Below, one piece after another: positions 6,275-55,742 of a stretch of 64,000 bases of DNA (the first letter of the stretch is position 1; each line of letters begins with the position of its first letter). The translations under genes and the position numbers were made by a program. The notes beneath the pieces are model-generated. The model was not told where the DNA came from and ran no database searches. It saw only the letters and a list, made by a program, of their open reading frames with translations. This DNA comes from Agarophyton chilense (lineage: Eukaryota; Rhodophyta; Florideophyceae; Gracilariales; Gracilariaceae), in the NCBI GenBank assembly GCA_030374765.1, contig JARGXX010000092.1, positions 1,951,001 to 2,015,000 on the forward strand, read 5' to 3'.

Positions 6275-6279
6275 AGATC
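6275..6279. other. Target-site duplication of A, left copy
   Basis: AGATC immediately precedes the 5' LTR and is repeated exactly at 17388-17392. Confidence 0.9.
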
Positions 6280-7168
6280 TGAAGGGCAATGCCGTTCAAG
6301 GGGGTTTGTTCCCAGGACTTAGAGATTTCGCTCGCTTGAGGACTAGCTTGGTCTTTGACAAGCTATACCGCTATTGCGTGCCTACGGCCAGTTAGGACCG
6401 GAGGTGCAAACTAGTGGAACACGTGGACTGCACGGATGCCGACGCTCGAGTGCGAGGCGTGCCACATGTGGCCCGGATTCTACCTAATGGTTAGTATTAT
6501 TTAGTAATTTTCAGTATTTATTTAGCTACGCTATCGCTATTTAGTGTCTATTTTTCGGGCGCCCGCCCACTGTCAGGGATCGCGCGCCACACTACTTAGG
6601 AGGTTGAGCACTGCTCCCCAGTAAATACCGTCTTGGGAGATCCCAAGGAGGGAGTCTTGGCTCTGAACTCTTCGCCTTCGGCGTGTCTTCACCGCATACT
6701 GCGTGAGCGCCCGTCGCACGTTAGTTCATCCACTCGTCTGTCGACCAGAGTGCTTCCACCACCGTGGGTTCATATTTAAATCGCTTACACTTGTCGTAGT
6801 CTCGCCCGTGTATAGGGTTTCGCCCCCGTTTTCCTCTTGTTCTCCTTTTTAGCTCTCGTGAGTGGCTGCCCCACTCACCCCGCTCGTCCACCTCGTACGA
6901 TTGTTTCCTCGCTCCTTTTCCGACAATCGCCGTGGTACCGCTCCGCCTAGAATTGGTCGCACCCCGGACTGTGCCGTGCTCACCTAAACACTCTATGTAT
7001 ATCTCGCCGGATTGGCCTCGGTCCTACACCAGACTCCGTCGTGCCTTTCCAGAGTGGCTCTGTTGCTGTGCTCCGCTGGGACGCGCCTCCTCCGCCTGAG
7101 GCGTGTCCCTCAAGAGAGGAAGATCCTGAACATCTTCGTGGTGTCTCCGCTCCAAGCATTGTCCTACA
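6280..7168 (+). repeat. 5' LTR of element A
   Basis: It starts TGAAGGGCAAT and ends CCTACA, the same as 16499-17387 and of exactly equal length. An A/T-rich block (about 6490-6545) and TTCATATTTAAATCG (about 6770) are candidate promoter elements. Confidence 0.95.
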
Positions 7169-7171
7169 AAC

Positions 7172-7339: not shown

Positions 7340-9436
7340 ATGTCTTCCAAAGACCGTACAAGGACGCGGAGTCAAACCGGTGCACCGGAACCATCGCAAC
7401 CAACCCGTATTTTGGTCCGTTCACGGTCTCATACCGGTGGATCGACTGGCGTGCCAGGTGGAAGGAACTCGAGACCTCCTGTCTCTGATTCCACACCCCC
7501 AGCAAGTGGAGCAGGACAGGCGTCTGCCGCCGCCCAGATGCTCTCCCTTGCTATGGATGTCACTCTCCATCCCAGCTTTGCAGCTGTAGAAGAGCAACTC
7601 CGCTTTATGCAGGAAGCTCAAGTCATCCTTGCAGAGGAGTTCGATTCCCTTCGAAAGAAGGTGGGTGACACTGGTACGCAGGATTTTTCTGAGGACCTCC
7701 GTGTCCCCCTTGCGGATGTGAACTCGATTCTAGAGTCCCTTGGTGGACACTCGGCCTTTGTCAAGGACGTCGCGGACAAGTTCTCGCGCGTCCGAAGCCG
7801 TCTCGAGACGTTGGAGCAAACCCTAATGTCGGGGGATGATCCGGCCGAGCCGGTTGCAGTATCCCACAAGGGAAATAAAGAAGAGAACCGCCAGGCTCGA
7901 AAGAATCGAAGAAACACGGATGCCGAACCGTCAGACTCCTCATCCTCGGAGTCCCACTCTTCCGATTCATCGGTGGAAGTAGATCACCGTGAGCGTTTCT
8001 CACGCTCTAAGCGGTCAACAGCCACCCTTAGTGTGATCCGCGCCCGCACGAAGGGAACGAAGCACATAGGTTTGAAGAAGCTGAAACCGACCAATTCGCT
8101 CTTTCAGAAGCTCTTATCATACCGGTACTACCGTTTGGAGGACTCCTCTTTGGATCGTACACCCCGTGGTACGGGAAGAGTGAAGGAGTGCATTAAGCGA
8201 ATGCAGCTCTCACTTCGCAACCAGTTGCTTTCTGGAGAAGACCCAACATTGGTGTTGGATTTCTTGGCACGGCTGGTCGCGGAAGCTGACATCCTTGGAA
8301 TGAACGAGGGACAGGCCTACATTGCCTTACGGTACTTCTCACGTAGGCTTGCAGAAGACCAGTGTCACCCTATCAGAGCTTCATCACGCGCCTCCGAAGG
8401 AGGGGTCACTTGCTGGCCTGAAGCAGTTCAATACCTCCTGAGGTCGTATGGTACTAACCTCGCCATTCAGCAGGCTATAGTAGCCCTGCGGAACACTCGC
8501 CAACGTCCAGGCGAGTCGGAAACCGATTATTCGTCGCGCCTTAACAAGGCCTTTCACCGCTGTGGTAATGTTTACCCCGCTGAAGAGCGTTTCACCATGT
8601 TTGTCGATGGTTTGGACCCTGCGATCCGGACTCTTGTTGCTCGACGTCAAGAAGGTAGACCTAAAGCCACGTATTTGGAACTAGTACAGTCCGCTCGCGC
8701 AGAAGGTGGAGCACTGCGCGCACGCACTCCTGGCTCCAGGCTTAGGTCCGCAAAAGCGTTGATGTTACAACCGGGTACCCCGTCAGCTTCGATGATCGAC
8801 GAACAGGCCTCTCGAAGGGATTATGATAACGTGCAGCTAGCCCATAGCGACGTTCATTCCATCCCGACAACGGAGTTACCCTCAACCTTGAACGAGTCAC
8901 AATACGTGATTGGGGATGACACGCTACTCTATGCAGATAATGGTCGCGTCCGTGCGCCACGCGTCTCACACAAGAGTGGTAATGTCCGCTTTTCGCGTCC
9001 TGGTTGGAGAGATACCCGCCCCGCTGTCAAGTTCACCGAGCTTCGCCATCCAACAGTGGCTTCTGGTCTGATTTGTCATCTCTGCTACAAACCAGGCAAT
9101 ACTTCTCCACAATGTGTGTTGTCTCTCCGAGAATGGGCACCAGTCGTAGTCAATTACGAGGACCTATCCCCGGAGGACAAAGCAGCTGTTCCGATTGCAT
9201 CTTATATCCGTGCTCGAACGGATGTTCCACTTCACGTGTCGCTTCCCCGAGCTCGGGGCGTACCTGCACCAGAATCCCGTGTTACCGACCTGGTCGGTCA
9301 CCCCACCGCTTCTGCGGTACCTTCTGGACCTGATGCCCCGGCGTTGCCTGCTCAACGTCCTGAGCAGCCGCCTCCGGCGGAGCAGGCCCAGAAAAACAAA
9401 ATGTGGGAGTCTCCTCTCAAGGAGGTGCGCCCTTAG
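7340..9436 (+). CDS. gag: Gag polyprotein of element A
   Basis: This intact 698-codon frame encodes the structural protein that packages the element's RNA into cytoplasmic particles. The ATG lies 153 bp after the PBS. Residues about 20-170 are low-complexity and probably helical. An acidic/serine run (SDSSSSESHSSDSS) and a basic patch follow. The segment SLFQKLLSYRYYRLED marks the capsid start, and the capsid core contains PEAVQYLLRSYGTNLAIQQA and RLNKAFHRCGNVYPAEERF. A zinc knuckle follows at CHLCYKPGNTSPQC, in which the expected His is Asn, so metal binding is probably impaired. Pol lies in the -1 frame relative to gag and begins a few codons after the gag stop. Confidence 0.92.
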   Translation: MSSKDRTRTRSQTGAPEPSQPTRILVRSRSHTGGSTGVPGGRNSRPPVSDSTPPASGAGQASAAAQMLSLAMDVTLHPSFAAVEEQLRFMQEAQVILAEEFDSLRKKVGDTGTQDFSEDLRVPLADVNSILESLGGHSAFVKDVADKFSRVRSRLETLEQTLMSGDDPAEPVAVSHKGNKEENRQARKNRRNTDAEPSDSSSSESHSSDSSVEVDHRERFSRSKRSTATLSVIRARTKGTKHIGLKKLKPTNSLFQKLLSYRYYRLEDSSLDRTPRGTGRVKECIKRMQLSLRNQLLSGEDPTLVLDFLARLVAEADILGMNEGQAYIALRYFSRRLAEDQCHPIRASSRASEGGVTCWPEAVQYLLRSYGTNLAIQQAIVALRNTRQRPGESETDYSSRLNKAFHRCGNVYPAEERFTMFVDGLDPAIRTLVARRQEGRPKATYLELVQSARAEGGALRARTPGSRLRSAKALMLQPGTPSASMIDEQASRRDYDNVQLAHSDVHSIPTTELPSTLNESQYVIGDDTLLYADNGRVRAPRVSHKSGNVRFSRPGWRDTRPAVKFTELRHPTVASGLICHLCYKPGNTSPQCVLSLREWAPVVVNYEDLSPEDKAAVPIASYIRARTDVPLHVSLPRARGVPAPESRVTDLVGHPTASAVPSGPDAPALPAQRPEQPPPAEQAQKNKMWESPLKEVRP

Positions 9437-9447: not shown

Positions 9448-12400
9448 ACGGCGCCCGAGGCATCCAAGCCTTGCTCCACGGTCAAAATCCTTTCAAGGAA
9501 AGAGGCCGTCAGTGAGGTGAACTCGGAACACTTTAGTGTTCTGCGTCGTCCGTGGAAACCTGTTTCCCATAACCGGTTCCCGGATAAAGTTCTGGTGATG
9601 GCCAAGAGAAACTACAAGGTCTATGCTTACCTTGGCCTTTCACCCCAGTTTATGGTGCGACACCTTACCGTCTTAGACACCGGTGCCGGTCCGAACTTTA
9701 TCGTGGAGGAAGTGTTACCGCCTGCTTTGCAGTCTCCGATTCGGCCCTACCACGTCCCGGGGGTCGCTGACGCGAACAACAAACCGTTAGATACGGTGGG
9801 TTTCATAGAACTGGTAGTCCGCGTTGGCACTCGCGTGGTGAAACTCGACTTCGTCGTATCTCGGAAATTAGCCGCCCCAGTCATCTTGGGTTGCGACTTT
9901 TGCGACCGCTTCGTCGAAGCAATCTTCCCCCGTCAACGGCATGTCGAGATGGAGGATGGATCGTCCACTCCGATCGTTCGTCGTCCGCTTAGGCGTGCCA
10001 CGAAAAAGCATGTCCCGCTACCGGCAGCACAGGAACCTGGACCGGATAGCCGTGAATATAATAACCTCTGCGTCGCAGTGTCGTTGTGCGTCCCGCCTGA
10101 GTCCCAAATGATGGTGAAAGAAACCTCCCGTCAACACGGAGTCCGGGTCTTGCAACCATTGTCGTCACTGTTTGACAGGCACAGCCTCGCAATTGCGAAT
10201 GGAATCGTCCATGTGGAGCCAAACTAACCGCTTCACGTGCTGATCGCCAATCTAGGGACTGTACTATAGTATCTGGTGAAGAACCAAGTGATAGGGTCCG
10301 TCATGCCGCAACCCATCGCTATAGTGCCGACAAAGCTGTCCGAAGCTGACGTTCTCGGACTCGTTCACTCTAAGGAGGGGGAAAGCGTGGAACCCGTTTC
10401 ATCTCCGGTACCCGGAGTTCAACCTGTAACATCAGGGACGAAGCCCGTTTCAACGAGTGGTGACCGCCCCGATCCAGTCCAAGAACTCGAGGACCTAGAT
10501 CTCAGCCACGTCCCAGAGTCATACCGCCATCGATTGCGAGAACGTTTTAGGGAATTCACCACTATGGGGGACGGCTCCCTTGGTGAGATTGACACTACGG
10601 AACACCGGATGGATTTGCTACCGGACACCCGACCCATCTCTCAGCACCCATACCGTGCCGGACCCGCCGCACGCGCGGAGGAAAAGGCACAAGTGGATAA
10701 AATGCTTCGAGCAGGACTCATTGAACCGGTCCAGTCGCCGTGAGCTTCTCCAGTAGTACTGGCTCCAAAGCAGGATGGTTCCTGGAGGTTTTGCGTCGAC
10801 TGCCGTCGGATGAATACCGTCACCGTCAAGGACGTGTATCCAATCACAAGAATGGACGAGTACATTGACTCGCTGGGAATCGCCACCGTCTTTACAACCC
10901 TAAACGCCAATCGGGGATACTGGCAAGTTCCGGTAAGGAAGCAAGACCAGGATAAAACCGCTTTCGCGTGTCACTCCGATCTCTACCGTTTCAAACGGAT
11001 GCCTTTTGGTCTTACCAACGCCCCCGCTACTTTCCAGCGAGCCATCGACATCCTTTTGGCCCGCTTCAAATGGCGTACCTGCCTGGAATACCTCGATGAC
11101 ACAATCGTCTTCTCAGATAATCTGGACAAACATCTCAGTCATGTGAGGGATATCATGACCACGCTTCGAGATGAGGGTGTCACTCTTAAGTTGAGGAAAT
11201 GTGACTTCTTCACGGACACCGTGAAGTATCTCGCCCATGTTATCCGTGCAGGAGGTGTAACAATCGAGGAGACTCGTGTTATGTCACTCAAAGAGGCTAA
11301 AGAACCGCGGACGTAAACCGAGCTTCGTTCCTTTCTGAGACTCGCAAACGTCTACCGACGATTCATCCCGCACTTTGCGGACAAAGGTGCACCGTTAAAC
11401 GCGCTTTTGCGGAAAGGCCAACCACCAAAACTGGACCCCTTAAGCCCCGTTCAAACGGAATCTTTCAACTTTCTTAAGGATTCTGTCGTCTCTGCCCCGA
11501 TCCTCTCGTTACCCAAGCCTGGAAGGCCCTTCACCGTAGATACGGACGCCAGCGACTACCAAGTAGGTTGTGCACTGTTTCAAACTGCACCCAATGGGGA
11601 AAGACGCTCCGTAGGGTACTGGTACCGATCGCTAAACGTCCACGAGAAGAATTACTCCGTCTCGGAGAAGGAATGCCTTGCCGTAGTGTGGGCATTACAA
11701 ACGTTGCGCCCCTATCTCATGGGTAATCATTTCACCGTTTTTACGGACCACGCATCACTTCGATGGCTACTCTCCATCTCGGAGCCTTCAGGCCGCTTGA
11801 TGCGTTGGCGTCTCCGTCTAGCAGAATTTGACTTCGACGTGCAGTACCGAAAAGGATCGTGCAACACCTAAGCCGATGCTCTCTCCCGCCTGGTCACTAC
11901 TGGCGAACCACTACCCGTCAAAGACGATGAGATACCCTGCTTTGCAGTGATTGGCGACGACGCTACCATCGAGGACGAGGAACGAGACACGGACTCTTCA
12001 GATTCCGGTTCCGAATTGGACGACTTTCTTCTCTCGGAAGATTCCGAGAAACCCTTACCAGGGAACTTCGTGCCTATTACTCCAGAGGAGATGATACGGG
12101 AGCAATTCGCTGACCCTTCTGCGCGAAGGTCCGCGCTCAACTCAATGGAGGAGGTACTCTCCCCTTTCAGGTGAATGACGCCGGATACCTTGTACGGACC
12201 GTCGGATCGCACCCACAAATCGTGGCACTACATAATCTCCAGTCAAGAGTCTTGCGGTTGTCGCACTACTCCAAACTGAGTGGCCACTTCGGGGGACGGA
12301 AAAGTTACCTCACCCTACGCCGGAACTTCTATTGGCCTGCCACGGCAGTGGACTGCTACGCAACGGCGCGGTTTTGTATCGCTTGCGCTCGGAAACGTGT

Positions 12401-14383
12401 CAAGCTCCGCCGTCACGCGACGAGCTTGAAGCTGTTTCCAGCTCACGCTCCATTGGAGTTTGTGGCCATCGATATACTCGGTCCCTTCCTTACCACTAAG
12501 CGGAATTACAAGTTCTTTCTCGTAATTACGGATCGCTTCTCAAAGCTGGTCCGGACTATACCGTTACGGAAGATCTCCTCTATGAGCATGGCTCAAGCCT
12601 TCGTCCTACACTGGGTCTTCGTCTACGGTCCACCGGTCAACCTCCTCTTCGATAACGGGAGACAGTTCGCCTCTCGTTTCTTCGAGGATGTATGTGGCAT
12701 CTTGGACATTAAGCACCTGTTCACGACCACTCACCACCCCCAAACTAATGGCCAGGTCGAACAGTTCAACCGGACATTACTTGCGACACTCCGTTCATAC
12801 GTTGCAGACCACCCCAAAGATTGGGACTTGTTCACTGATGCGCTCACCTTTGCATACAATATGCAGGTGCACAGGACAACTGGATCAACTCCCTTCGAGT
12901 TGGTACTGTCCCGTACCCCACCGCCCGTGGCGCTGGAACCACAGCCCACGCTGGGTACCTTTCCTTCACCAACTGCTTTCCGCGAAGCGTGGAATACTTG
13001 GCTCACGAAGCTCTTTCCCGCCGCAGGGCGTTCAATGGGCCGAGCCCAGGCCGCTTACAAGCGTGACTTTGATACCAAAGCTCCTCGCTCGCCGCCACGT
13101 CTCGCCCCAGACGGTTATGTATTCATCCGCAAGGAGTATTGGAACCCAGAGAAGGAGAAACGCCACAAGCTGTCACCCGTTGCCGACGGCAACTTTCGGG
13201 TTATTTCGGTGGCTCCCGACACTGTCGTTGTTGACCTCGCTGGTAATCACGAACGCATCTCCCGCGATCGCGTGGTATCGGCTCCTCCGCCGTTAACCCC
13301 CCAACCTACTCGTGTTACTGCTCCCGTCGAAACGGATTCCTCGACCCCCTTACCCCATGTCCACCCGCGTCCCTACGCCTTACCACACCCATCTCGGGTT
13401 TTGTCTGACCTTCCGCTACCCGCGGCGCCCAACCCGCAAGGAATCGTGTCGCGCATTCGTCGCTCCCCCCCGGTCCACCTGACAGACAACAAACCCGGTG
13501 CATCGTCTAAGGAGGGGGAGGCGCCCGACAGCCGTCGTAATCCGGTCGATACCGTCGCTGGAAACGCTGCACCGTCGCGTGTCATTCTTCGCCCATCAGG
13601 GGTGCCTGACACCGACGTCCTGCACGACTCGACGCAGCTGCTGATAACGCCACCAACACTCGCCGAGGTGTCACCACACGTGCAACACGGAATGCAAATG
13701 CGCTCGACGCACCGCAGCCTGATACAGTACGAGTGGACGACGCACCGCCAAATACCCCGCACAGGGAGGCGGATACATCTACGGCGCCGACGCCGGACAG
13801 CCAGCCATTGGAACCCTCACGTGACTACACGGAACCTCTCCGTGGGACAGAGAGGTGCGACAATGCGCCACCGCCCCAGCGAATCTCACCGCCGAAGCGA
13901 GCTTCACCACGCCGATTAGCAGAACGACCACCCGGGTTACCCGCCGGTGTGGGCCGTCCAACCGGAGTGGGAAACGCCGAAGCAAACCAGGTACTTGGGG
14001 AAGATGAACCGCCGAAGTCGGGTAGACATTCCACTCAACCGAGGACTGCCTTGCGCGTTACACGGTCCGACCGGAGCGAAGCCGCCCAACGCGTGATCAC
14101 TCCGGTACTCCCAGGCTCAGGACGGGTACCACCCGGAAATAGCGACACCGTCATACGGGATGGCCGGGAAGTGTACCGACAAGAGTTCGTGGTCGGACGG
14201 ATTTTGGAGCAATCCTACCACCCAAAGGGGTATATCCAATACTTGGTCCGTTGGTAAGAGTACGGCCCCGAATGGGATTGAGACGAACCGATAGAGCACC
14301 TACCTCGGTCAAAGGTGGTACAGTATCATCGTCGTACTGTCACGGCTTTGCCGGCTACCACAGACCGAGCCCAAGTGGGATAA
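9448..14383 (+). pseudogene. pol: Pol polyprotein of element A, broken
   Basis: Pol supplies the replication enzymes. Protease has an intact VLDTGAGPN (near 9670). RT has ITRMDEYIDSLG, FKRMPFGLTNAPATF and the YLDD active site (near 11090). RNase H has DTDASDYQVGCA, the EKE glutamate and TDHASLRWLL. Integrase (12171-13300) is open, with a complete His2Cys2 site (SHYSKLSGHFGG with CIACARKR) and the D, D, E core residues (VAIDILGPF, FDNGRQF, TNGQVEQFN). A GPY-like module is at KLSPVADGNFRVI. A chromodomain lies at about 14183-14337 (EFVVGRILEQ, YLVRW, GPEWD, DEPIEHLP). Lesions: stops at 10225, 10267, 10741, 11314, 11869, 14255 and 14279, and frameshifts near 12165 and 13700. Several stops replace Gln or Trp conserved in relatives. 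Confidence 0.93.
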
Positions 14384-14595: not shown

Positions 14596-16259
14596 TCAGT
14601 TGGAAGAACCCGGATTACCGTGCGCACCAGCCGAATCGCTAGCGGAGTTACTCCCGCCGGCCAGGCGTGCCACGAGGGCGTCTCTCGTCTTATCGATGTA
14701 GCCACTAGCCTCTTGCGCGTTCAGTCCGACACCCTGAAAGAACTGGGATATCACGGCCGCCTCTGGGCGTACGGGAACCTCGATAACTTCCGGTTCGTCC
14801 GGCAACGCCGCCGCCGCTGGATCGACCACTGCACCTGCTTGAGTCGCTCCCTGCGCCAGCTGCGCCGTAGTATCGGCACCATCGGGGTCTCCCACGTCTT
14901 CCATGACCTCATCGCCACGGCATTCGCCCTCCTCCTCCGGGAGATCATCACCGCCATAGGCGTAGTAGAAGTCATCCGAGTTGGCAAACCCCACGGGGTG
15001 CCCGTATGGTATGCCTCGCGGAGCCATCCGGAGTGCCAACGCCTCCCCCTTGGAGATCTCTTGCTGCTCCCATGGGTTAAAAAAGATGAAATCTCCCGCC
15101 AACTGTGTGCGACGCCCCGGAGACCGACCAGCCACACTGGCTTTTTGACCACGGTCGCTCTGCGGGACAGGCACGACAGCCCAGTCGACACGCCCAACGA
15201 TGTCGATGAGCTTCTGAGCTTCATCAGCGTTATTGACACATCCAAGAGGGAGTTGAAGGTCCAGCTGCCGGATGTAACCACGCAAACGCGGAGGAAGATA
15301 CCACAGTCGATACTGGTCGTAGGGTTCCCACAAGATGTACGACGCGGCGCGGACTCCCCATTTTGTTAGGACCACGGACCATAAGCCGGAGTGCGGATCC
15401 TCGATGAGGTACGAGCCCATATAGTAGACGACTGGAGGTAACTCCACATAACATCCCCGGCACACCTCGACGGAGGACCACCACCCAGGCAGGGGAACGT
15501 ACCGCCCAAACTGATAGAAGGGACTAATCCGGTTTATCTCCGTGTTCTGATAAGGGAAAAAGAACCCAAAGCGGGATCTGCCCCGACGCTCCTCGCGGAT
15601 GAAGTTCTGTAACCACCGATATCGGTACTCACGACGAAGGTGGCGGAACTCGACACGAATGATCGGACGGACCCAGCAGATCGCTTCTTGACGCGCTCGC
15701 GGTTGACCGCGCCATGCGTAAGTTTCCAACGCCGCAAGGCGGTCACAATAGCCGATCTCACCCTGAGTCCGGTACATGCGTAGGTCTAAGTCGAATTCGT
15801 TGGGGATGGGGTATTGAAAGTTTGCCAGGTTGATCTGTGAATAGCCGATGCGGACGAATACGCAATGCGCCCCCTCCGCCGACTCGCGCCTCCGCCGCAG
15901 AATCGCGTAAACGGGAACCGCCACCCGGCGTCGCCAATCCCACGAGGTGGTGATCAAAGCTGGCAGCTCGCCTGGGAGACGTGCATTGCCATCAGCATAC
16001 GACGCCACGAGTTCTTCGTCGAAGACCGCTGTCGGAGGGAACCACGGAGCTCTCCGGAGAATTGCCGCATGTTGACGCGGGTTCAACCCGACGAGTTCGT
16101 CGTAAGTGGGCCAGGTGTCCTCCGCAGGAGTGATGTGGCTTGAAGCTTCAACGGGACCCAGGGATCGGCCCGGCGTGGTTGACGAGGCACTCCCCTGCGG
16201 AAGGGGAGCCGAATTAAACCGGAGAAGTAACCCCGGCGGGGATTGTTACCACCATTCAT
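14596..16259 (-). CDS. Antisense accessory protein of element A (conserved, unknown function)
   Basis: A reading frame on the opposite strand to gag-pol, open without a stop from 16245 to 14596 (about 550 codons). The likely ATG is at 16259 (MNGGNNPRRG), joined by one frameshift near 16230. The homologous frames in E and B share many blocks: RAPWFPP; YYMGSYLIEDPHSGLWSVV; AASYILWEPYDQYR; YIRQLDLQL; VGRVDWAVVPV; PGRRTQLAGDFIFFNPWE. An acidic stretch (DDLPEEEGECRGDEVMED) and a short helical tail (FFQGVGLNAQEASGYI) end the protein. It is rich in Trp, Tyr and Arg, with no signal peptide or membrane segment seen. I do not recognise the family. Antisense frames at this position are known in some plant Gypsy elements (for example Grande and RIRE2), also without established function. 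Confidence 0.8.
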
Positions 16260-16485
16260 TAAGAATACTGGTCGCCGAGGTATCGGAATGTGTTCGCTGG
16301 AAGTTGGTATACGATGCAGAAAAACGCTCGAAGTTCGAGGAGTGGTTACCGCGTTGGTGCATTTGTCGTTCGGTTGTGCAGCTCTGCCTTCGACAGTCGA
16401 GTGGTCGCTGGACACGTTACGCGGCTCGCTTTTATTCTGGCTGGACCGTTGCCTCCCCGCCATGTCGACGGCATGTTCGTCACCT

Positions 16486-16498
16486 AAGGATGGGGATA
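16486..16498 (+). promoter_or_regulatory. Polypurine tract of A
   Basis: AAGGATGGGGATA directly precedes the 3' LTR, where plus-strand DNA synthesis is normally primed. Confidence 0.7.
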
Positions 16499-17387
16499 TG
16501 AAGGGCAATACCGTTCAAGGGGGTTTCTTCCCAGGACTTAGAGATTTCGCTCGCTTGAGGACTAGCTTGGTCTATGACAAGCTATACCACTATTGCGTGC
16601 CGACGGCCGGTTAGGACCGGAGGTGCACACTGGTGGAATACGTGGACTGCACGGATGCCGACGCTCGAGTGCGAGGCGTGCCACACGTGGCCCAGATTCA
16701 ACCTAACGGTTAGTATTATTTAGTAATTTTCAGTATTTATTTAGCTACGCTATCGCTATTTAGTGTCTATTTTTCGGGCGCCCGCCCACTGTCAGGGGCC
16801 GCGCGCCACACTACTTAGGAGGTTGAGCACTGCTCCCCAGTAAACACCGTCTTGGGAGATCCCAAGGAGGGAGTCTTGGCTCTGAAGTCTTCGCCTTTGG
16901 CGTGTCTTCACCGCATACTGCGTGAGCGCCCGTCGCACGTTAGTTCATCCACCCTTCTGTCGACCAGAGTGCTTCCACCACCGTGGGTTCATATTTAAAT
17001 CGCCAACACTTCTCGTAGTCTGGCCCGTGTATAGGGTTTCGCCCCCGTTTTCCTCTTGTTCTCCTTTTTGGCTCTCGTGAGTGGCCGCCCCACTCACCCC
17101 GCTCTTCCACCTCGTACGAGTGTTTCCTCGCTCCTTTTCCGACAATCGCCGTGGTACCGCTCCGCCTAGGATTGGTCACACCCCGGACTGTGCCGTGCTC
17201 ACCTAAACACTCTAGATATATCCCGCCAGATTGGCCTTGATCTTACACCCGACTCCGTCGTGCCTTTCCAGAGTGGCTCTGTTGCTGTGCTCTGATGGGA
17301 CGCGTCTCCTCCGCCTGAGGCGTTTCTCTCAAGAGAGAAAGATCCCGGACATCTTTATGGTGTTTCCGCTCCAAGCGTTGTCCTACA
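16499..17387 (+). repeat. 3' LTR of element A
   Basis: It is 889 bp, the same length as the 5' LTR, with about 50 substitutions. The exact duplication AGATC follows at 17388-17392. Confidence 0.95.
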
Positions 17388-17392
17388 AGATC

Positions 17393-30362: not shown

Positions 30363-30996
30363 TGTCGTATAGTGGCAGAAGGTCTGACCTTTGAGGTTGT
30401 CAATGTACTACAATGACCCTGTAGGTGATGGGTGCGAGGGATCATCGGCCATGCAGCTCCGGGCGAGCTACCATCTAGGTGTTGTCAGCCACGTGTAGTG
30501 TTGACATGTACCTTCTGGTTGAGTAATTTTTAGTACTTGTAATTGTAATTATATTCATTTTAGTACAGTAGTGGAGTGGCCACCTGGCACTGTAGCCAGT
30601 GCTGGCCAGGTCTCTGACACTAGGTCAGAGACTGTGCCTTGCTGGCACCTCCCGGGTGATCTGGAGAGTGCAGTACACTGCATATAGGGAACTGCACCTC
30701 CCCCATCCTAATCTGATAAAGACAGGCACCACTTGGGTCACGACTATACCTTTTGGTTCATCGTCTCTCAACTACCACACAGGCTTTCCCGCGCGTCGAC
30801 GCCTACTATCGTTCACCGACACGGTATAGGCTAGTTGCCCCGCCGTTTGTCCCTTCGGGTTTTCACGGTGCCCTGTTACCATCGAGGTTTACTACGTCCA
30901 CCTTCTAAGGTTGAGCGTCAACACGCTCCCTACGGTTGAGCGTCACTACGCTCCCGAGACAAGACAGTAGCATACCCCAGAGGTGATTGTACAACA
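30363..30996 (+). repeat. 5' LTR of element C
   Basis: TGTCGTATAG to ACAACA, matching 40922-41556. It includes an internal inverted repeat around TCTCTGACACTAGGTCAGAGA (about 30609-30629) and a short direct repeat (GGTTGAGCGTCA, twice near 30910 and 30933). Confidence 0.95.
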
Positions 30997-30999
30997 TTT

Positions 31000-31015
31000 T
31001 GGTCTCCCGACTTAG
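31000..31015 (+). promoter_or_regulatory. Primer-binding site of C
   Basis: TGGTCTCCCGACTTAG, three bases after the LTR and identical to A's. Confidence 0.88.
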
Positions 31016-31143
31016 AAAGTATTTTTAGGTTTCGTCGTACCTTCACGGTTCACACGAGATACCGAGAAGGATTGGAAGCTCGTACACCTACTTGGTTTCA
31101 GGAAATCCCGCAAAGCAATACAGGATACCACTATTGGTCACAA

Positions 31144-33354
31144 ATGGAACGACCTAAAAGGAATACGCGTGGTGCGAGCGCCCCGCAAAGCCATAAAGGT
31201 CCTAAAGTAGCCCCATCGGCTCAACCGATTCTTAAGAACCCCGAGGAGCTGCTCTGGAAACCTCGGGACAAAACCGTAAAGGTACATGGTCCGACGCCTA
31301 CGGCAACGGAACCTCAAAGGGAATTACCAATTGAGGTTGCAGCGGAGGAGCTATGGCCTCTGCTCGAAGAGCGAGCGAAAGCGCTCGTCACCCTCGCGGT
31401 CGAGGATGCATTAACCTTTAAGGAGAAGTCGGATACTTGGATGGTTCCGCCCTCAATGGACGTCGATGCATTTACCCGTATTGTGGTTGACCGAGCAGCT
31501 CAAGAGCTATCGGAAAGGATACCTGAAATGGTGAAACAGTATCTCTTTACAGATGCTAGAGAGCATGTTTACCGCGCTGTGCAGGCCCTTTGGGTTTCCG
31601 AGGGATTCGCAGAATCCCAACCTACACAGGTGAACATCGCAAAGCGCATACCACAAGGGTCCCAAATAGGTCATTCCACCCATTCCAAACACTTACCTAC
31701 TGATAGTGAGTACCTACAAGGTCCAAGACAGAGTCAAGAGGTCCAGGGGAAGGTAGATCCTCAAGATATTTATCTGCCACCAATTACTGGTTTCGTTCAA
31801 AAGGATACCCATGGAGGTGGTCCCAAGGACGATTCGTCTGACTCGTTGGATGAACGACGAAGAAACCGAAAAGGGAATAAGCGGAGGACGAAGAGGGGAA
31901 AGAATCGAGAAGATGATTCAGACCCCTACTCGTCAGACTCCAGTTCCGATACAAGTTCATCTTCGGATGATGACCGTAAAGGTAAGAAGAAGAAGAAACC
32001 GAACAGATCGACAAAGAAGTCGTCGAAAAAGACCCGAAAGGGTAAAAAGCGATACAATGAGTAGCCCGACTTTGAGTCGGACACCGAAATGGACCTGGAG
32101 GTGCACCAACCGTTGAACGATATGTTCACCAAAGCGGTCGATTACAGGACTTATCGGTTGATCAACAAGTCTTCTGAATGCACCCAAGAGATCGCTCAGA
32201 AGATTACTAAGCACCACAAGAAGCTCAGCTTCCAAATGGGTGACACAGCCTTCACAGGTACGGATCCTAATGCGGTGATTGATTTTCTATCGAAGTTCAA
32301 GATTGCATGTGACCAAAATGGTTTTTCCGAGGGCGCTGCTATGTGGCTATTTCAGTTTTACCTGAAATGACAAGCATACTACTTGCTGCAGGGTAGGCTG
32401 CGCGGCAATACCTTAGCGATGGATGAGGATGGCACAGAGATGTTGGAGTCATGCCCAGAAGTTGTCAATTTCCTTTTGGAAACATACGCCACCGATGAGG
32501 CTATCCAAGAGGCTTATTCGGAAGTCCTCGCCTACCATCAAATGTCTGGGCAAACCGAATCGGAGTTATCGCTCGCGCTGTGGAATCTGGCAACCCGTTG
32601 TGGTAGTGTGTTCAATACCTCTAGGTTAAAGTCGCTATTTGCCGACAATGTCGACAAAGCGATCCGTTCCCAGGTACTCAACTACCTGGCCACTAACCGA
32701 AAGGTAGACTACAATGGGCTGGCTCGATATTCCCAGGGCCTTTGGGATACCTTTCGGATGAGAAAGAGACCAGCCGTGCCTCCAACCTCGAAGGATAAAC
32801 CGAAAAGGTCGGTCTTGGAAATTGAAGACACAACAACCTCAGAGGGTAGCTCGCACATTGAAGTTCCTACAGGAACCGCTATCTACTTGGTAGCGACCCA
32901 GGGGCGGTTCTCGAAACCTTCGATGGTATGAAATTGGTCGTCAACGAGTACACCAAACTCGGTACCATCGCCGCCAAGTGCGATGAGCTCGCAGAGGATG
33001 CAGGGAGCGAGCTCCCATAACTCGCCACCCACATCCTACGCCACTGCTCCTACCAACCAGGTTTCGAAGTCCCCCTCAATGGTAACGCGAGACCCCCAAA
33101 CCGGAGGACTCGTTTGCTGGTTCTGTCTCGCGACAGACCATTTGGCAAACAATTGCGCTAACTTACCTCCAGGGATGAGAGACCAGTTGATTCAGGCTCG
33201 CACTCAGAATCACCAACGCCTATATAAGTCTACAACGCAAACACCAAATAGGTTCCAACCCCGTACACCGGTACAGGTCAATACCATCGAGGAAACACCA
33301 AACTTGGACTCAACCCCTCCGGTACAGGAGGAAAACACCGAACGGTTGGCGTAA
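31144..33354 (+). pseudogene. gag: Gag of element C, three internal stops
   Basis: The first ATG (MERPKRNTRGASAP) is at 31144; the frame opens further upstream with a non-ATG codon. An N-terminal helical part, a strongly acidic/basic region (DPYSSDSSSDTSSSSDDD then a Lys/Arg run) and the capsid core (VIDFLSKFKIACDQNGFSEG) follow, matching D's gag (VLRFLSLFRTACDQNGVHEG). A canonical CCHC zinc knuckle, CWFCLATDHLANNC, lies near 33115. In-frame stops occur at 32062 (TAG), 32368 (TGA) and 32929 (TGA), with no frameshift. The gag stop overlaps the pol start in TAATG (33352-33356). Confidence 0.88.
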
Positions 33355-36300
33355 TGGCCAAACCCAACCTGCAATGGGAAGGCCAATCGTTACCCAGAAC
33401 CTTGAAGGTGGAAGAGAACACTCCGGTTTGTCATATGAAGGACAATAACTATGAAGTACGTGCTTCAATGTGTTTCTCCGATCGCCTTGCGGTTCCAGTC
33501 ACCTGCGTGTTGGAAACGGGGGCCGGCCCAAACGTCCTGAACTCCCGCGTCATACCTAAGGCGGTACTTCGGAACTTGAGCCGACCTCCCGACAACAACC
33601 CGCAGGTGGATGCAAATGAGCGCCCATTAAACCTTCGAGGTATGCTCACCACTGTGGTGCAGCTCGGACACCTCAAGGTAAGACTACAATTCTTTGTTGT
33701 CGACCGTTTACCAACAGACTGCCTACTAGGTACGAACTTCATTGACAGACATGTCAAATCAATCCTTCCTGGTTCCCGTACCGTCGCCCTACGTCAGGGG
33801 GGACGAATTGCCATTTTAGGTAATACGGAAAGCAAACGGGGATGGTTCGTCAAACCGAAGAAGACGATATCCACCGAAACGGTCTCCAACAAAGTGCGTA
33901 TAACCAAACAGATTATTATCCCGCCAATGCACCAAATATCGGTACCGGTGTCGTGTCCGACCCCAGGGCTAGTCATACTACAAAACCATCCGAGGTTGGC
34001 ACACCGACATCTCACTTTGATGGCCAACGGGATTGTCGACAACATCCCAAATCAACCCTTTAAGGTGTTTCTAAGCAACTTCAGCAGTCATGACGTGAAG
34101 TTGCTGAAAAATACCAATGTTGGCATAGCACTACGGGCACCGCAAGGGGTCTTCACCGTAGCTCACACTGATCTCGGCGAGGTTGCCTTCGATAAGGAAG
34201 GGGGTTGCGCAAATGAGTCCACAACCACAAAGGTATCGATAAATACCAACTTGGAATCAAAGCTAACCGATAAGGCATCGGTAGAAAAAGAAGAGGAACC
34301 TCACCCTGAGAGACAATGGAAAGATACAGTCCATATCGGTGAAGATAACGGCGAACTGCGGGGTCGTATTATCGACCTTCTGGAGGAGTTCGAAACCATG
34401 TGGTCAGGCCATCTGGGCCAAATTAAGGCCACACAGCATCGCATCGAGCTCCTCCCTGACTCAAAGCCTATTTATCAGCAACCATATCGTGCAGGTCCGA
34501 AGTCGAGAGAGGTAAAACCCAAAGAAGTGGAGCGAATGCTCCAAGAAGGTGTAATTGAACCAGCCAACTCAGATTGGGCTAGTCCCGTGGTTCTGGTTCA
34601 GAAGAAAGGGGATAAACGTATGAGGTTCTGTGTGGACTACAAAAGGCTCAATAGCGTGATCATCAGGGATTCGTACCCGATAACTAGAATGGATGAGTGC
34701 ATCGACTCCTTGGGAGATGCGCAGATATTCACCACGTTGGATTCCAATTGTGGTTATTGGCAGGTACCCGTAGGTGAGGAAGATCGAGACAAAACGACCT
34801 TCACGTGCCCTGCAGGTTTTTTTCGCTTCATGCGGATGCCTTTCGGGTTGCGCAATGCTCCAGCCATCTTTCAAAGGGCGCTGGACATCATCCTTTCGAA
34901 GGTTAAATGGACAACCGCCTTGGTATACATCGATGATGTAAGCATCTACTCCCGATTGGTAGAAGAGCATTTTGCTCATGTGCGCACCGTACTAACCCTC
35001 CTAGCTAAGGCGGGGTGACGCTGAAGCTACGCATATGCGTCTTCTTTACCAGAAAGGTTGAATACTTGGACCACATCATAGACCCTGGTACCTTAGAGGT
35101 TGCGCTGAGCAACATTAGAGCCGTACAGGAGGTCAAGTTGCCACGATCCCAGACAGACGTACGATCCTTTATAGGTTTATGTAACGTCTATCGTCGCTTC
35201 GTGAAGGGATTCGCAAAAATAGCGGTTCCTCTCAGCAAGAAGCTCCAGAAAGGTGAACCTGAACGGTTTGAGAATCTATCGAACGAAGAAATGGATACCT
35301 TTGAGGAATTGAAACGAGCGCTGTTGTCGCCGCCAATCTTAGCGTTACCGAAAACAGGTCTACCGCACACGCTGGATACAGATGCATCCCATGCCCAAAA
35401 TGGTTGTTCTCTCATGCAGGAGCAGCAAAACGGAGACAAATTACCTATAGGATACTGGAGCCGCGCTATGAATGAGGTGGAGCAGAACCAGAAAGAATGT
35501 CTAGCAGTAGTGTGGAGCATGTTGATTCTCCGTCCATACCTGTATGGTGAGCGCTTTACGTTGCGCACAGACCACGACGCCTTAAGGTGGATCCTCAGAC
35601 TCGGAGATGCGTCTGGCAGACTTCCCCGTTGGAGGTTGAGACTGTCGGAGTTTTAATACGACGTACGGTACCGTCCAGGTATCAAGCACAACATAGCTGA
35701 CGCTCTGTCACGCTTAAACACCTCAGGGTTAGAGACAGAACCGGTGGGCGATGATATCCCTTGCTTTTTGGTGTCATCAAACCAAAATGGTACCGGCGAA
35801 CACCAAGAAGGATGTTGGGACTTACCTCAAGAAGGTGCCTTGCAGAACACTGACATGGAAACGCAGATACTGACCCTAGAGGAAGCGAAGGTCATGGCCG
35901 TAACCCGAGAGGAATTTATACGAGAACAGGCCCAGGATGTGTACTGCAGAACGCTGGCTGACCAAAAATGGTTTCAAAGGATCACCATTCGATGTGGACC
36001 ACAATTGGTACATCGTGAGAAGGTCAACCTTGGATGGTAGCCTTCAAAAGGTGGTTCCGAAGGCACTGCGCCGTAGAGTCTAGTTTCTCGCGCACTACCC
36101 GCGACTATCGGGACACCCCAGAGCCACTAGGATGAATTACACCTAGAGGCAACGGTTGTATTGGCCTCATATGGCCCATGATGTCTATACCTTTGTAGTT
36201 CAATGCGAATCTTGTGTTCGTACCCGCAGTGGTATTCGAAAGCAACCAAAATACCTCAAGATGTTTCTAGCAGCGGGTCCGCTGGAGATGGTTGCGATAG

Positions 36301-37619
36301 ACCTTATAGGACCACTTCCCATGACCAATAACGGGTATCAGCACATTCTAGTGATCACCGACAGGTTCTCGAAGCTCACGAGAGCGATACATTTAAAGGA
36401 GACGAAGTCAACCACGCTGGCGATCGCGTCCCTCAACAATTGGGTCTACCCGAATGGTGCACCAATGTACCTACATACCGATAAAGGTTCAAACTTGGCA
36501 TCGAAGTTCTTCGAAGCAGTCTGTACCCTCTTGGGTACCAAGCACTATTTCAATACTGCCTACCACCCGCAGACGAACGGACAGGTCGAGCGCTTTAACC
36601 ACACATTGGTATCAAGGCTACGATACTATATGGAAGAGCACCAAACTGGGTGGGATAAGCTGGTGCAACCGCTCACCTACTCCTATAGACTTCAGTTACA
36701 CCGGTCAACGCAGACCACTCCCTTTGATTTGGTTCTTTCGCGACACCCCCCAGGTATTGTAGTGCAGGGAGATCATACCACCAGCACTGCAGCTGGCGCA
36801 CTGACCCCTGCCCAGGTCAAGCGGAATACCCTTTTGATGTTGAGGAGGGCTCTCAAACATGCAGAGAGCCGCCTCACTGCAGCCCAGAAGCGGTACAAGG
36901 CCGACTACGACCGTAGGGTAACCAAAGTGGTCTCTGTATCTTAGGGACAATATGTCTACATAGACAACCCACCTTCAGGTAAAAGACCACGACCGGGTGA
37001 TGAAGCAGACGATGAAGCTATTGGCAGAGATGTCAATTCGAAGCTTCTACCCAAGTCAGTGGGACCTCATAAGGTATTGAACGCATCAGACCACACCGTT
37101 ACGGTTGACCAAGATGGAATACCGATTACGATATCAAATGACCGTATTATGGTAGCACCTGAAACGGGTCAAAATCGCATTGAGGTAGGCGCCGCAGCCC
37201 GAGAGCCCAGAGCGGTACCTCTGCGCACTCGACCCTCGGAGGACCCCACCCCAATTGAGGTGAATGATGAACTACAACGGGATGATCCGGATTACAACCC
37301 TCTAACAGGGACGGAAATGGAACCTCACACGTTAACCGTGGGAGCTTCCGACCCGGCTTCCACAAACGAAGCCCCCAACTCTGAACATACGAACCCTGGA
37401 GGTGGCGTTCTTCCGAAAGATCAGGACCAAACCTCAGAGGAATTCCCCGTTGACCGTCTGGTGGGCCACACGCGAACCTACAATGGTCTGAAGTACACCG
37501 TCAGGTGATACGGCTTGGGCCCAGAAGGGGACATCCTCGAACCCTCAGCCGCAATAGCCCCACACTTCCGTATCAGGTATTAGCGCCGTCGCAATGAGCC
37601 GATGTCTGCAGACGGCTAG
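33354..37619 (+). pseudogene. pol: Pol of element C, broken
   Basis: Translation could begin at the ATG overlapping the gag stop. Protease reads VLETGAGPN, so the catalytic Asp is Glu and activity is doubtful. RT follows with CVDYKRLNSV, FTTLDSNCGYWQV, FMRMPFGLRNAPAIFQ and the YIDD active site (near 34930). RNase H has DTDASHAQNGCS and TDHDALRWIL. Integrase (36060-36940) keeps CESC, VAIDLIGPLP, TDKGSN and TNGQVERFN. A GPY-like GPHKV and a chromodomain (about 37440-37585: FPVDRLVGH, YTVR, then GLGPEGDILEP) end it. Lesions: a one-base loss in a G run near 35010, stops at 35654, 36942, 37506 and about 37581, and disruption at 36030-36150. The stop at 37506 replaces the chromodomain Trp. Confidence 0.92.
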
Positions 37620-37779
37620 CCTTAGAACCTCGTGGTACTCAGGCCTAAGGAAGGGGGAGAAAAGACGTCGTTTTCCGCAGAAGGCGGACGCATACGCGTG
37701 TCAGACTACCTACAAGGGAGGACACGAAAGAACAACCAAATGTAACAGTAGGGGATACAAGAAAAGACAACAAATTACT

Positions 37780-39778
37780 TTAAGAAGGACTTGTCGGTTT
37801 AGGAGCAATGGAATCTGGAGGACCCGTGTTAGTGACTACCCACGGAGGAAAACCTACGGAAATGCTAGGAGCCATCAACCTAAGAGGTAGCGAAGGAGCG
37901 GTAGCCCCGCCACTGTGGAGAGGAGTCGAAACCAAAAGAGGATGAACGAAAGGAACCGCCGGAGCAGGTTGCAAAACCGCAGGGTTCAAGTTTGCACCTA
38001 GAAGGGGATCTGTCAAAGGATCAGATGGCGCAGTAGCAGAGACGCTTGCCAGATTGGCAACCTGACGGGTGGCCAGTTGGTACATGTCCAACTGCAACTG
38101 ATTCCGGAACTCACCAAGTTGGTTCAGCGCCTTCATGTATTGCGCATAGTGCGGCAGCAAACCTTCAAGGAGCGTTAATGCAGCAACCACGGAGGTAGGC
38201 CCAGCCCTCTGAAAGTTGGTGACGCAAGACTGGCGAATTCGAGCCAGCAAACCGACCACGGCCGGAGAATCCATCATAGGTTGAGGCGGAGGCAGAGCAA
38301 TACCCGTCGACAGAGGTCGAACCGGACCAGCAACCCGCGAGGAGCTCGGTTGAGTAGGAGTCACACCCGTAAGAATAGGCGGCTTACGACCATGAGGTAA
38401 CTGCTCGGACGGGAAGGGACCAGCATAACGACCAACTGGTGTCTCCACAGTACCGTGATAAGATTCGGGGCTCGTGGGAGCTCCATAAACAGGAGGCTCC
38501 CCGGGATAGTATTGGGCGTGGCAAGGCACAATCTCCCAAATTGCGGGATCGAAAGCCTCCCAACCTTGATGGGAATCCCAGTGGTATTTCTTGCTCTGCT
38601 CGAGATACGAGTCCAAATCCTTCACGGTATAATCGGTCCGCTCCACGATGTTCTCGTAACCAAATCGGGAAATACTGGGCAACCCTCGGAGGTGTGAAGA
38701 AGATGCGAGCTACAGGTTGAACACCATCTCGGTATATGTCTGAATCGGGATTGCGACAATCCCAATCGATACCGTAACGGGCGGCCTCCAGAGGCCGGAT
38801 GGCAACCAACACGGTCCACTCCGAGAGAGCAATCGACCAAATAAGGTAATACCGCTCTAGGTTTCGAGAAATCGGACTCCCGATGTACGCCAAAACCGGC
38901 AGAGTGGGCACGCTCAGCGACAACGGAACCTCATAGGACTCCCACCAATCTGGTCGAAGAACTTACCAATCGCGTCTGTCCTTCGTAGGTTGTGAGAAGT
39001 ACTCGACGTTATGAAACGTATGCATAACGCGAGTGTAAGAGTTGCGAGTGCGAACGGGACTCTCCGTCGCTGCATCCTCGCCCCACCTACTACGGTCAGC
39101 CCAATTGATAGTGTTGAAAGCCCAATTCAGGGAAACCAAGTCAGAGGAAACCGGAAGGTAAGTTTCCGGAATAGACGGGTACTGGCACACTTGAACCACC
39201 AATCGACGGTAATAATCCAGCTCCAGTTCGATGCACACATACGGAAAGTCGCACGGATATATCGGCGGGATGAAATACCTCAAAGGTGTATGAGGCTGCC
39301 GACTCTGGTAACATTCCAGTCGACCCTGAAAAGGTTTAGAATCTTAGTCCCGTTTCTTCAAAAGTAATGGAACGGAGCGAAGGCGCTCGCAGTCCCAACG
39401 GGACAAACCCAAGTAGGTATCCAATTGTGGTCTTGTAAGAGCTGCCGGCAGTGACGAATTCCTCACCGCCACAAGCCAATCGTGCTTCAACAGGTCATTG
39501 TTTGTCACCTGGTCGAAGGTAATACAAAAAGGTCCATACTGACTCGTCGTCCGGTTTGCCGCACCGAACGCGAGATTGTGAGCCCAAATGGTTTGAATCG
39601 TCGAAGGAAGTCCACCGTTGCGTTAATACAGGTCAGCCGGAGTCCTAGAGGAGAACTGAGTGGCAGGGACAGGCATGCTGCGAAACCCAATGTTGGTAGG
39701 CGTTCGCGAAGTCGAGCGAGTCACCCTCTTGGTAATACCACCGCGTCCACGGCCACGAAATGGGCCACTACCTGACAT
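37780..39778 (-). pseudogene. Antisense accessory gene of element C
   Basis: This convergent frame sits at the position of A's antisense gene. The probable start at 39778 gives an RGG-like N-terminus (GPFRGRGRGG), which suggests nucleic-acid binding. The middle part (39283-38963 and 38923-38640) has DYYRRLVVQVCQYPSIPETY and then PVLAYIGSPISRNLERYYL and LSEWTVLVAIRPLEAARYG, comparable with A's YYMGSYLI... and D's VVAYHSSQLM.... The C-terminal third (38682-37780) is Pro-rich, then helical (LLEGLLPHYAQYMKALNQL). Stops near 39626, 39345 and 38963 and a frame change near 38640 break it. The product is unknown. A frame at 40226-39972 may be an N-terminal extension. Confidence 0.65.
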
Positions 39779-40907
39779 GGTTGGGAAGGCCGTAGCTCGA
39801 CCCGACGAACGAGGTGATGACACGACCTCAACCGCCGCAGTGAACACCAGCGGGTATTCATCCTTCTGAAGTAAAGCCTCCTTGGTCCGTTCTGAGGAGA
39901 CGGCCAACGGATCCAACCCTTCCGGTAGGCCCGACACTGACCTTTCGGGTACAACAGTGGCTGGCGTGCGGTCACCAGAGGGTCATGGAACGGGACCAAT
40001 CCGACCTTAAAGGCATAACTGCAGGGGTATCAATTCCCTCGGAATCTCCGACTTCTTCAACCTCAATGGTAACCGGCATCTCACCTCTCTCGAGCGCTGG
40101 TGCTGCTTGTGGGGACGACCCAACACTTCGAGGTATATGTGACGAATCCACGATGCGGCGCGAGGTGCACCGACGTGGTAACGAATGGGTTCGAACGCGT
40201 GCGCGGAGGCGGCGCGATCCTGTCATGCCCTTAAGGGTAACCCGGAATGCAAAACCGGAAAAAGGTCGCGTAATTACCGACGGGGCCGCTCAACACCAAT
40301 AAGGTCTCACAACTGGAAGCTTCCACCACGGACCCAGGCCAACATCTCAATGGTTGTATCGACACAGGCTCAGGCCCCACCGGCGCCACGAGTCAATCTT
40401 TACAAGGTAGACGAAACCTAAAAGGTCGAGAAGCCAGGAAACCTTCAGGGAAAAGCCCGACAAACGGTTACGGTCGCGACGCCGCCAGTCAAGGGCAGCA
40501 CTACCTGAAGGGTTGTCGAGCCGTGGGAACGACCAGGCGGGACGGCGCTGCGCAGGGACCTAGGAGGGAACTGAAATTTGAGTAACCGGGAAAAGGTGAG
40601 ACACAAACTTGGTTAGACAGGGAGGCTATGCGCAAGCAGAATCGCAAGCAAGCAGGGCCACTACCGAAACGGTGTCCGCGAGCGCGCTAGTTACACTGCA
40701 TCGCCCTCATAACAGTCCCTACCTGAATGGTTGTCACTCAATTCGTGCGCCGACATCTCCGCGCGCCCTCCACAACGGATACTGGCGCCGAGTTCTGAGC
40801 CTCAAGAGATCGCGCGCCGCGCGCAGACACCACTCCGATGCCTGCGCCGCTGTCGCTCGCTACACCTCTACGGGTTGATGGAAGGAGACACGGGGCGTGC
40901 CTCACGA
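39779..40907. other. Long 3' untranslated region of C
   Basis: This 1.1-kb stretch lies between the antisense start and the polypurine tract. It is CpG-rich with no frame I recognise. The 5' control region of the antisense gene should lie here. Confidence 0.5.
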
Positions 40908-40920
40908 GTAGGAAGAGGGT
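40908..40920 (+). promoter_or_regulatory. Polypurine tract of C
   Basis: GTAGGAAGAGGGT, one base before the 3' LTR. Confidence 0.65.
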
Positions 40921-40921
40921 C

Positions 40922-41556
40922 TGTCGTATAGCGGCAGAAGGCCTGACCTTTGAGGTTGTCAATGTACTACAATGACCCTGTAGGTGATGGGTGCGAGGGA
41001 TCATCGGCCATGCAGCTCCGGGCGAGCTACCATCTAGGTGTTGTCAGCCACGTGTAGTGTTGACATGTACCTTCTGGTTGAGTAATTTTTAGTACTTGTA
41101 ATTGTAATTATATTCATTTTAGTACAGTAGTGGAGTGGCCACCTGGCACTGTAGCCAGTGCTGGCCAGGTCTCTGACACTAGGTCAGAGACTGTGCCTTG
41201 CTGGCACCTCCCGAGTGATCTGGAGAGTGCAGTACACTGCATATAGGGAACTGCACCTCCCCCATCCTAATCTGATGAAGACAGGCACCACTTGGGTCAC
41301 GAATATACCTTTTGGTTTATTGTCTCTCAACTACCACACAGGCTTTCCCGCGCATCGACGCCTACCATCGTTCACTTACACGGTATAGGCTAGTTTCCCC
41401 GCCGTTTGCCCCTGCGGGTTTTTCCCGGTGCCCTGTTACCATCGAGGTTTACTACGTCCACCTTCTAAGGTTGAGCGTCAACACGCTCCCTACGGTTGAG
41501 CGTCACTACGCTCCCGAGACAAGACAGTAGCATACCCCAGAGGTGATTGTACGACA
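40922..41556 (+). repeat. 3' LTR of element C
   Basis: It matches the 5' LTR with about 16 substitutions and one extra T near 41421. Confidence 0.95.
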
Positions 41557-41581
41557 TAACTATCAGTCCCAAGCAGCAAAA

Positions 41582-43922: not shown

Positions 43923-43924
43923 AG

Positions 43925-43940
43925 TGGTCTCCCGACTTAG
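43925..43940 (+). promoter_or_regulatory. Primer-binding site of E
   Basis: TGGTCTCCCGACTTAG two bases after the LTR, the same as A, C and D. Confidence 0.88.
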
Positions 43941-44134
43941 AAACACTGTGGTTGGCTACTCCAAATATTTCGCACCTGGAACGTGGAATCGATACCGATG
44001 TTTAATTCGAATGGAATACGATCTCGGGAGCGGTTTCAGACCACGTCCAGCTATTACGGAGATCCATTGTTAATTACGCTGTCGTATTGAATTGAAGACC
44101 TCAATTATTTCGTCGCCGAACATTGGATTTGTTA

Positions 44135-46100: not shown

Positions 46101-46145
46101 CACGTCCTCACGAATTACGAGACGCTCTCAGTGGAGGAAAGAACC

Positions 46146-46150
46146 CGAAT
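46146..46150. other. Target duplication of D, left copy (shifted)
   Basis: CGAAT here pairs with CGAGT at 56188-56192. Each copy is separated from the LTR by one extra base (C at 46151, T at 56187). The uninterrupted site in X reads CCCGAGTGCCGG (plus-strand complement near 770), which supports this reading. Confidence 0.6.
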
Positions 46151-46151
46151 C

Positions 46152-46595: not shown

Positions 46596-46598
46596 TTT

Positions 46599-55740: not shown

Positions 55741-55742
55741 TG

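Follow-up and report, generated by a model that had tools for sequence, protein, structure and literature searches.

A conserved antisense gene between pol and the 3' long terminal repeat in retrotransposons of the red alga Agarophyton chilense

In a stretch of 64,000 nucleotides (nt) of the genome of the red alga Agarophyton chilense (contig JARGXX010000092.1, positions 1,951,001 to 2,015,000; referred to as the window), four elements with paired long terminal repeats (LTRs) were detected, namely A, B, the nested element N, and the outer element O. P0003, a protein listed by NCBI for A. chilense (synonym Gracilaria chilensis), is encoded in this genome with 100% identity over its full length of 418 amino acids. 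In all four, a gene lies between pol and the 3' LTR on the minus strand, antisense to the rest of the element. It is almost certainly a real and selected gene, since the ratio of replacement to silent variation (pN/pS) shows constraint and homologues are found in four families. Overall, it is probably a minus-strand accessory gene of a gracilariacean lineage of Ty3/Gypsy elements (chromoviruses, at least in A and N), when its role is read broadly. The initial annotation, made from the DNA alone, proposed a real gene of this lineage in A, B, and an element E, which corresponds to O; all three are carriers, and N is a fourth that was not listed.

Structure of the antisense gene

In element A, the minus-strand frame opens at 16245 and runs for 549 codons to its stop at 14596. 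A length of about 550 codons had been annotated, with the right end of the frame at 16259. The length holds for the open frame of A, but position 16259 is two bases out of this frame and stops are met when it is read from there. Moreover, this frame falls short of the intact gene, which in the open A copy L006 has 622 codons and an N-terminus, MAGRQR, resembling the MANEQR start of a Gracilariopsis chorda protein described below. In the window copy, the ATG at 16463 sits in another frame (16083-16514); since this start and the 549-codon body are in different frames, a frameshift must be located somewhere in 16083-16245. The ATG is retained in 17 of 19 aligned copies of A, and 35 nt separate it from the edge of the 3' LTR at 16499.

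Blocks of conserved residues are found in O and B. As had been annotated, O carries PWF, RQLDL, IDWHGVP, and AGDFVWYNP, which are distributed over the frames 59921-60760 and 59382-60029, and B has related blocks despite a frame broken by stops and shifts. The gene is convergent with the last plus-strand pol frame in each of the four elements, with a gap of approximately 20-300 nt, the exact ends of pol being uncertain where its frames are broken. Matches to the gene in the 79.8-Mb assembly number at least 79 for A, 98 for N, 151 for B (using a piece of 126 amino acids (aa)), and 139 for O. When 14299-16495 was simulated 5000 times with a first-order Markov model, the longest minus-strand open stretch had a mean of 153 codons and was at most 412 codons, so that none of the simulations reached 549.

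Homology between the four families

By alignment and profile scores, the gene is homologous in four diverged families of elements. The proteins of A and O are 38% identical over 273 aa (expect value (E)=1e-50) and 39% identical over a further 82 aa (E=3e-15). A and N are joined by BLASTP at E=3e-5, while BLASTP gave no match between A and the upstream piece of N, nor between A or N and the B piece 37783-38709. Weak links to B were obtained by tblastn, from A with 35% identity over 51 aa (E=0.002) and from N with 28% over 116 aa (E=5e-4). Family profiles compared with hhalign gave 3e-9 for A/B (probability 96%), 1.8e-8 for B/N (95%), and 5.3e-5 for A/N (67%). As a control, the second profile of each pair was column-shuffled 100 times and reversed once. 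None of the 100 shuffles reached the real score; scores were at most 28 after shuffling and 15-20 after reversal, as compared with real scores of 45-79. The profile comparison covered A, B, and N; O is linked to B and N via A.

This likeness of the proteins is not a by-product of similar DNA, which had been named as the way in which it might vanish. No blastn match (7-base words, E<=1) exists between the four genes of different families. In the codon alignment of A and O (n=277), identity is 0.52, 0.59, and 0.27 at the first, second, and third positions, respectively; the last value equals the chance level of 0.27. Of 54 fourfold-degenerate sites, 14 are identical. Synonymous sites of A and O are saturated, while the protein is conserved. 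The gene was very probably present in the common ancestor of the four families.

Selection among copies

For each family, the top-ranked matches including the window copy were analysed (20 of at least 79 for A, 12 of at least 98 for N, 12 of at least 151 for B, and 14 of at least 139 for O), a sample that favours well-kept copies. Variants were counted per alignment column without a tree, and recombination among copies could affect the counts. Over the 20 copies of A, pooled pN/pS is 0.54 in the frame of the gene, which is not near 1, as against 1.02 and 1.05 in the two remaining frames of the minus strand. The integrase of A, aligned in 15 of the 20 copies, has a pooled value of 0.72 in its own frame. 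The extended analysis of A described below retained 19 of the 20 copies.

Variants shared by two or more copies should stem mostly from the period in which the element was copying, and private variants, present in one copy, mostly from the time after insertion. In the frame of the gene, shared and private pN/pS are 0.35 and 0.78 in A, 0.25 and 0.87 in N, 0.53 and 0.83 in B, and 0.31 and 0.87 in O (Fisher test, p=5e-6, 2e-14, 1e-3, and 3e-6, respectively). The shared value in the frame of the gene is the lowest of all six frames in every family. Private values of 0.78-0.87 do not reach 1. The integrase of A behaves like the antisense gene, with 0.48 for shared and 1.0 for private variants in the same 15 copies. 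This is the pattern of a gene that is needed by the element and decays in dead copies; it encodes a protein, on which purifying selection acted during the time in which the elements were copying.

One plus-strand frame is also low, with a pooled value of 0.64 in A and shared values of 0.49 in A, 0.41 in N, 0.67 in B, and 0.45 in O. This is an echo, since the third positions of this frame coincide with those of the gene, its value always lies above that of the frame of the gene, and it contains 26 stops per copy of A.

When A is divided into intervals, shared pN/pS amounts to 0.74 for the one spanning the ATG and to 0.56 for the initial 255 coding nt, followed by 0.35, 0.22, 0.27, 0.60, 0.31, and 0.77 in successive intervals of 300 nt. 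In the 150 nt upstream of the ATG it is 1.36 (20 variants, of which 4 are silent and 16 are replacements), so that shared variants show no constraint there.

Relatives and expression

Protein searches with the A-type protein returned P0001 and P0002, the latter being the hypothetical protein BWQ96_03215 of Gracilariopsis chorda, with 49-51% identity. The N query found six A. chilense proteins, and a query with the joint alignment found two additional ones as well as P0018, an open reading frame (ORF) in EukProt named as a TRINITY transcript, which is 62% identical to a B-type protein over 262 aa. P0018 suggests that the gene is transcribed in some species, on a strand that is not indicated. 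No relatives were found in the viral contigs scanned. Within the searches made, the protein family and its host lineage appear to be new, and no report of antisense ORFs in red-algal elements was found among the titles and abstract beginnings of open-licence PMC papers.

By identity, the G. chorda protein is closer to A (49-51%) than O is (38%). Therefore, the split between A and O would be older than that between Gracilariopsis and Gracilaria, unless the elements moved horizontally. For comparison, the speciation of the Gracilaria species studied in PMC12502185 is dated there to about 162-126 million years ago.

In P0008, an A. chilense gene model, the N-terminal part cannot be aligned to the other proteins, and another frame has apparently been fused to the antisense gene.

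Protein features and possible role

By eye, the protein has an N-terminus of low complexity, followed by a conserved core of about 300 residues; a low-complexity linker, which is acidic in A, connects this core to a C-terminal segment that is short and conserved. A basic motif resembling PPKKRARL occurs near the C-terminus in four of the eight N-type proteins of alignment A2 (P0011, P0012, P0004, and P0005), and a basic RGRGRGGITKRVTRS stretch is present in all three open copies of B; both may be nuclear signals. A conserved helix is hydrophobic to different degrees, with Kyte-Doolittle values over 19 residues (KD19) of 1.75-2.47 in B, 1.36-1.82 in N, and 1.19-1.45, with charges, in the A-type proteins.

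The start of the gene in A adjoins the LTR, and so an antisense promoter would probably lie in the 3' LTR. From such a promoter, in or beside the 3' LTR, the gene would be transcribed apart from gag-pol. Its product may then act in the nucleus by regulating or helping the transcription or integration of its own element. A regulator or helper of the element is the likeliest role because of the analogy with the antisense genes of Grande, Retand, and retroviruses, and on this analogy the product probably has such a function; that it is specifically a nuclear regulator is proposed tentatively.

Several observations weigh against this interpretation. No function-bearing domain was found, with no Pfam family at E<=10 for 11 family members and no match to Protein Data Bank (PDB) sequences at E<=1 for the A protein, in agreement with the initial annotation, in which the protein was not recognised. 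AlphaFold models, each from an alignment of 10 rows, are unusable, with a mean confidence (pLDDT) of 38.4 for the A protein and 45.9 for P0018. The basic motifs are not common to A and O, and the hydrophobic helix of B, with KD19 of up to 2.47, allows a membrane role in that family. P0018 does not prove which strand is transcribed. As for homology, tblastn (E<=0.01) joins neither O to B or N, nor A to N, and the profiles of A and N match with no more than 67% probability. Constraint along A is uneven, being weaker in the first 255 nt (0.56) and in two of the six later intervals (0.60 and 0.77). The boundary at the ATG is noisy, as pN/pS upstream of it is 0.40 for private variants (n=59) rather than 1.

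An alternative role is that the protein counters host silencing caused by double-stranded RNA (dsRNA), which would form from sense and antisense transcripts that converge. Since the gene runs antisense to the genomic RNA and towards pol, complementary RNA would result if both strands were expressed; its retention in all four families of the window is also consistent with this role. However, the cost of dsRNA attaches to any antisense gene and by itself does not point to a suppressor, and no supporting domain was found in the family members searched. Such a function is considered unlikely.

The space between pol and the 3' LTR is the position of env, and it is improbable, even given this position, that the product is an env-like or particle-associated structural protein which is encoded antisense by happenstance. 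The helix of B, and to a lesser extent that of N, would suit a membrane protein, but the same stretch in the A-type proteins is charged, and these contain no strongly hydrophobic 19-residue stretch. Furthermore, the env-like ORFs described in PMC7264820 are in sense orientation, whereas the present gene is antisense in four of four elements. An env-like identity was rejected on these grounds, orientation and the missing strong anchor in the A-type.

It is also quite improbable that the gene was captured from the host, or from another mobile element of which it is a piece, and hitch-hikes for the benefit of the host or of nothing. Its relatives are few, and red-algal where named, which would allow such an origin, and P0018, a short complete ORF, could be a domesticated copy. 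On the other hand, the gene is found in four families under constraint similar in strength to that of integrase, and its genome matches are multi-copy, although the search scored the best candidates only and single-copy host relatives were not sought exhaustively.

Antisense non-coding transcripts occur in other elements (PMC7264820), but the notion that the RNA itself matters here and not the protein is very improbable and was rejected, given codon-structured constraint that is strongest in one frame in four families and DNA similarity between families that blastn does not detect. Finally, a chance shadow frame, which a GC content near 0.57 would lengthen, is practically dismissed by the simulations together with homology and selection.

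Comparison with known antisense genes

Accessory ORFs that lie antisense in the space from pol to the 3' LTR are a known kind of gene, and the statement in the initial annotation that such frames occur in a few plant Gypsy elements is borne out by Retand and Grande (PMC11963269, PMC7264820). Antisense accessory ORFs of LTR retrotransposons (aORF-3R) are expected to be present in most copies and conserved like other proteins of the element; for the present gene, constraint in A is comparable to that of integrase. The TRP28 ORFs of Retand (PF04195, Transposase_28) are likewise antisense, located between pol and the 3' LTR, and kept across species, with function unknown according to PMC11963269; however, Retand belongs to a non-chromovirus lineage of flowering plants, whereas the red-algal A and N carry a chromodomain. 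PF04195 had no match in 11 red-algal family proteins in Pfam, and a scan of the A. chilense genome for this domain was also without match, yet 14 control genomes were equally silent and the scan is uninformative.

Gene23 of maize Grande and the antisense ORF of rice RIRE2 resemble the present gene in position and orientation, and they are conserved to a degree comparable with other proteins of retrotransposons (PMC7264820). They belong to different hosts and element lineages, and the comparison made here is one of layout. The Grande antisense protein is described as nuclear, with its own promoter (PMC7264820), and regulatory roles have been suggested in reviews for the antisense genes of Grande, Retand, and retroviruses (PMC7264820, PMC11963269). 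The antisense ORF of Boty from Botrytis and Sclerotinia differs in being fungal. HBZ of human T-cell leukaemia virus type 1 (HTLV-1) is also an antisense gene at the 3' LTR end (PMC7264820, PMC11963269). In HTLV, an antisense promoter lies within the 3' LTR. HBZ is, however, a retroviral gene, to which no sequence relation is claimed, and in the red-algal LTR such a promoter is only putative.

Antisense accessory genes of LTR elements are on record from retroviruses, flowering plants, and a small number of fungi; their role in plants is open. The occurrence in red algae of a protein family that has no Pfam match but is under clear codon-structured selection would extend the retention of such genes to a distant lineage. 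It is possible, with a probability somewhat short of even, that the gene is ancient and a fixed part of a whole chromovirus lineage in red algae, predating the split of A, B, N, and O. If so, regulatory genes of this kind, transcribed in reverse from the 3' LTR, would have originated here separately from those of land plants, fungi, and retroviruses, and with vertical inheritance the gene would predate the separation of Gracilariopsis and Gracilaria as well. For comparative tests, hundreds of natural copies are available in a single 80-Mb genome. Caution is advisable with red-algal gene sets, which these frames enter as hypothetical or unnamed proteins.

Elements and other features of the window

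The features of the four elements are listed in Table 1. By Pfam and tblastn, reverse transcriptase (RT) and RNase H were placed in all of them, and integrase in each except O; no integrase was found in 56188-61187 of O by tblastn using the integrases of A, B, and N.

Table 1. Positions of the retrotransposon features in the window.
Feature	Position	Strand	Remarks
5' LTR of A	6276..7169	+	TG start 6280; 94.3% identity to 16495-17388 over 894 nt
gag of A	7340..9436	+	698-aa ORF; Pfam Retrotrans_gag E=0.00018, under the cut-off of that family
RT and RNase H of A	10660..11829	+	tblastn with the B domains RT (54%) and RNase H (50%)
Integrase of A	12171..13919	+	Pfam rve 1.2e-11, Integrase_H2C2 9.6e-10
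Antisense gene of A	14596..16463	-	549-codon frame 14596-16245 and start ATG 16463-16461 in a different frame
3' LTR of A	16495..17388	+	TG start 16499
Element B	30363..41557	+	LTRs 30363-30997 and 40922-41557, 97.3% identical; Pfam RVT_1, RNase H, rve
Antisense gene of B	37780..40289	-	Decayed by frameshifts and in-frame stops; possible start near 40226; other genomic copies are open
Outer element O	43272..61716	+	LTRs 43272-43802 and 61187-61716, 84.7% identical; interrupted by N; Pfam RVT_1
Nested element N	46149..56187	+	LTRs 46149-46596 and 55740-56187, 93.5% identical; Pfam RNase H, rve
Antisense gene of N	53367..55190	-	Single in-frame stop at 54660; likely ATG 55190
Antisense gene of O	59382..61063	-	In-frame stop 60761; frameshift between 59921 and 60029

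Chromoviruses are Ty3/Gypsy elements with a chromodomain after the integrase, and this class applies to A and N only. At the end of pol, the Pfam Chromo score exceeds the cut-off of 25.1 bits in one of the two A copies tested (L004, 25.4) and one of the two N copies (L015, 28.7), and falls below it in L017 of N (23.0), the window copy of O (19.3), and L006 of A (18.8). Pfam detected no chromodomain in the copies of A (13610-14254) and B (36945-37505) in the window, where both frames are broken. Of the annotated chromoviruses A, B, and E, the assignment is thus upheld for A, by one of its two copies, while O remains below the cut-off and no chromodomain was detected in the broken frame of B.

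A subfamily about 70% identical to O has 611-codon frames, and by inspection 11 of the 139 matches listed for the O family are that long without a stop. Recent activity is suggested by four of these 11, whose scores are equal; two of the four are near contig ends (C114 and C115) and may duplicate one locus. Elsewhere in the window, 265-3619 is an inverted O-type fragment with 85-89% identity to parts of 43271-46148 and 56188-56700, and plus-strand frame remnants at 19928-21551 resemble, by eye, the pol end of another Gypsy-type element. Strong GC-skew blocks are located at 22001-24000 (-0.29) and 62001-64000 (+0.34), the latter with long low-complexity frames.
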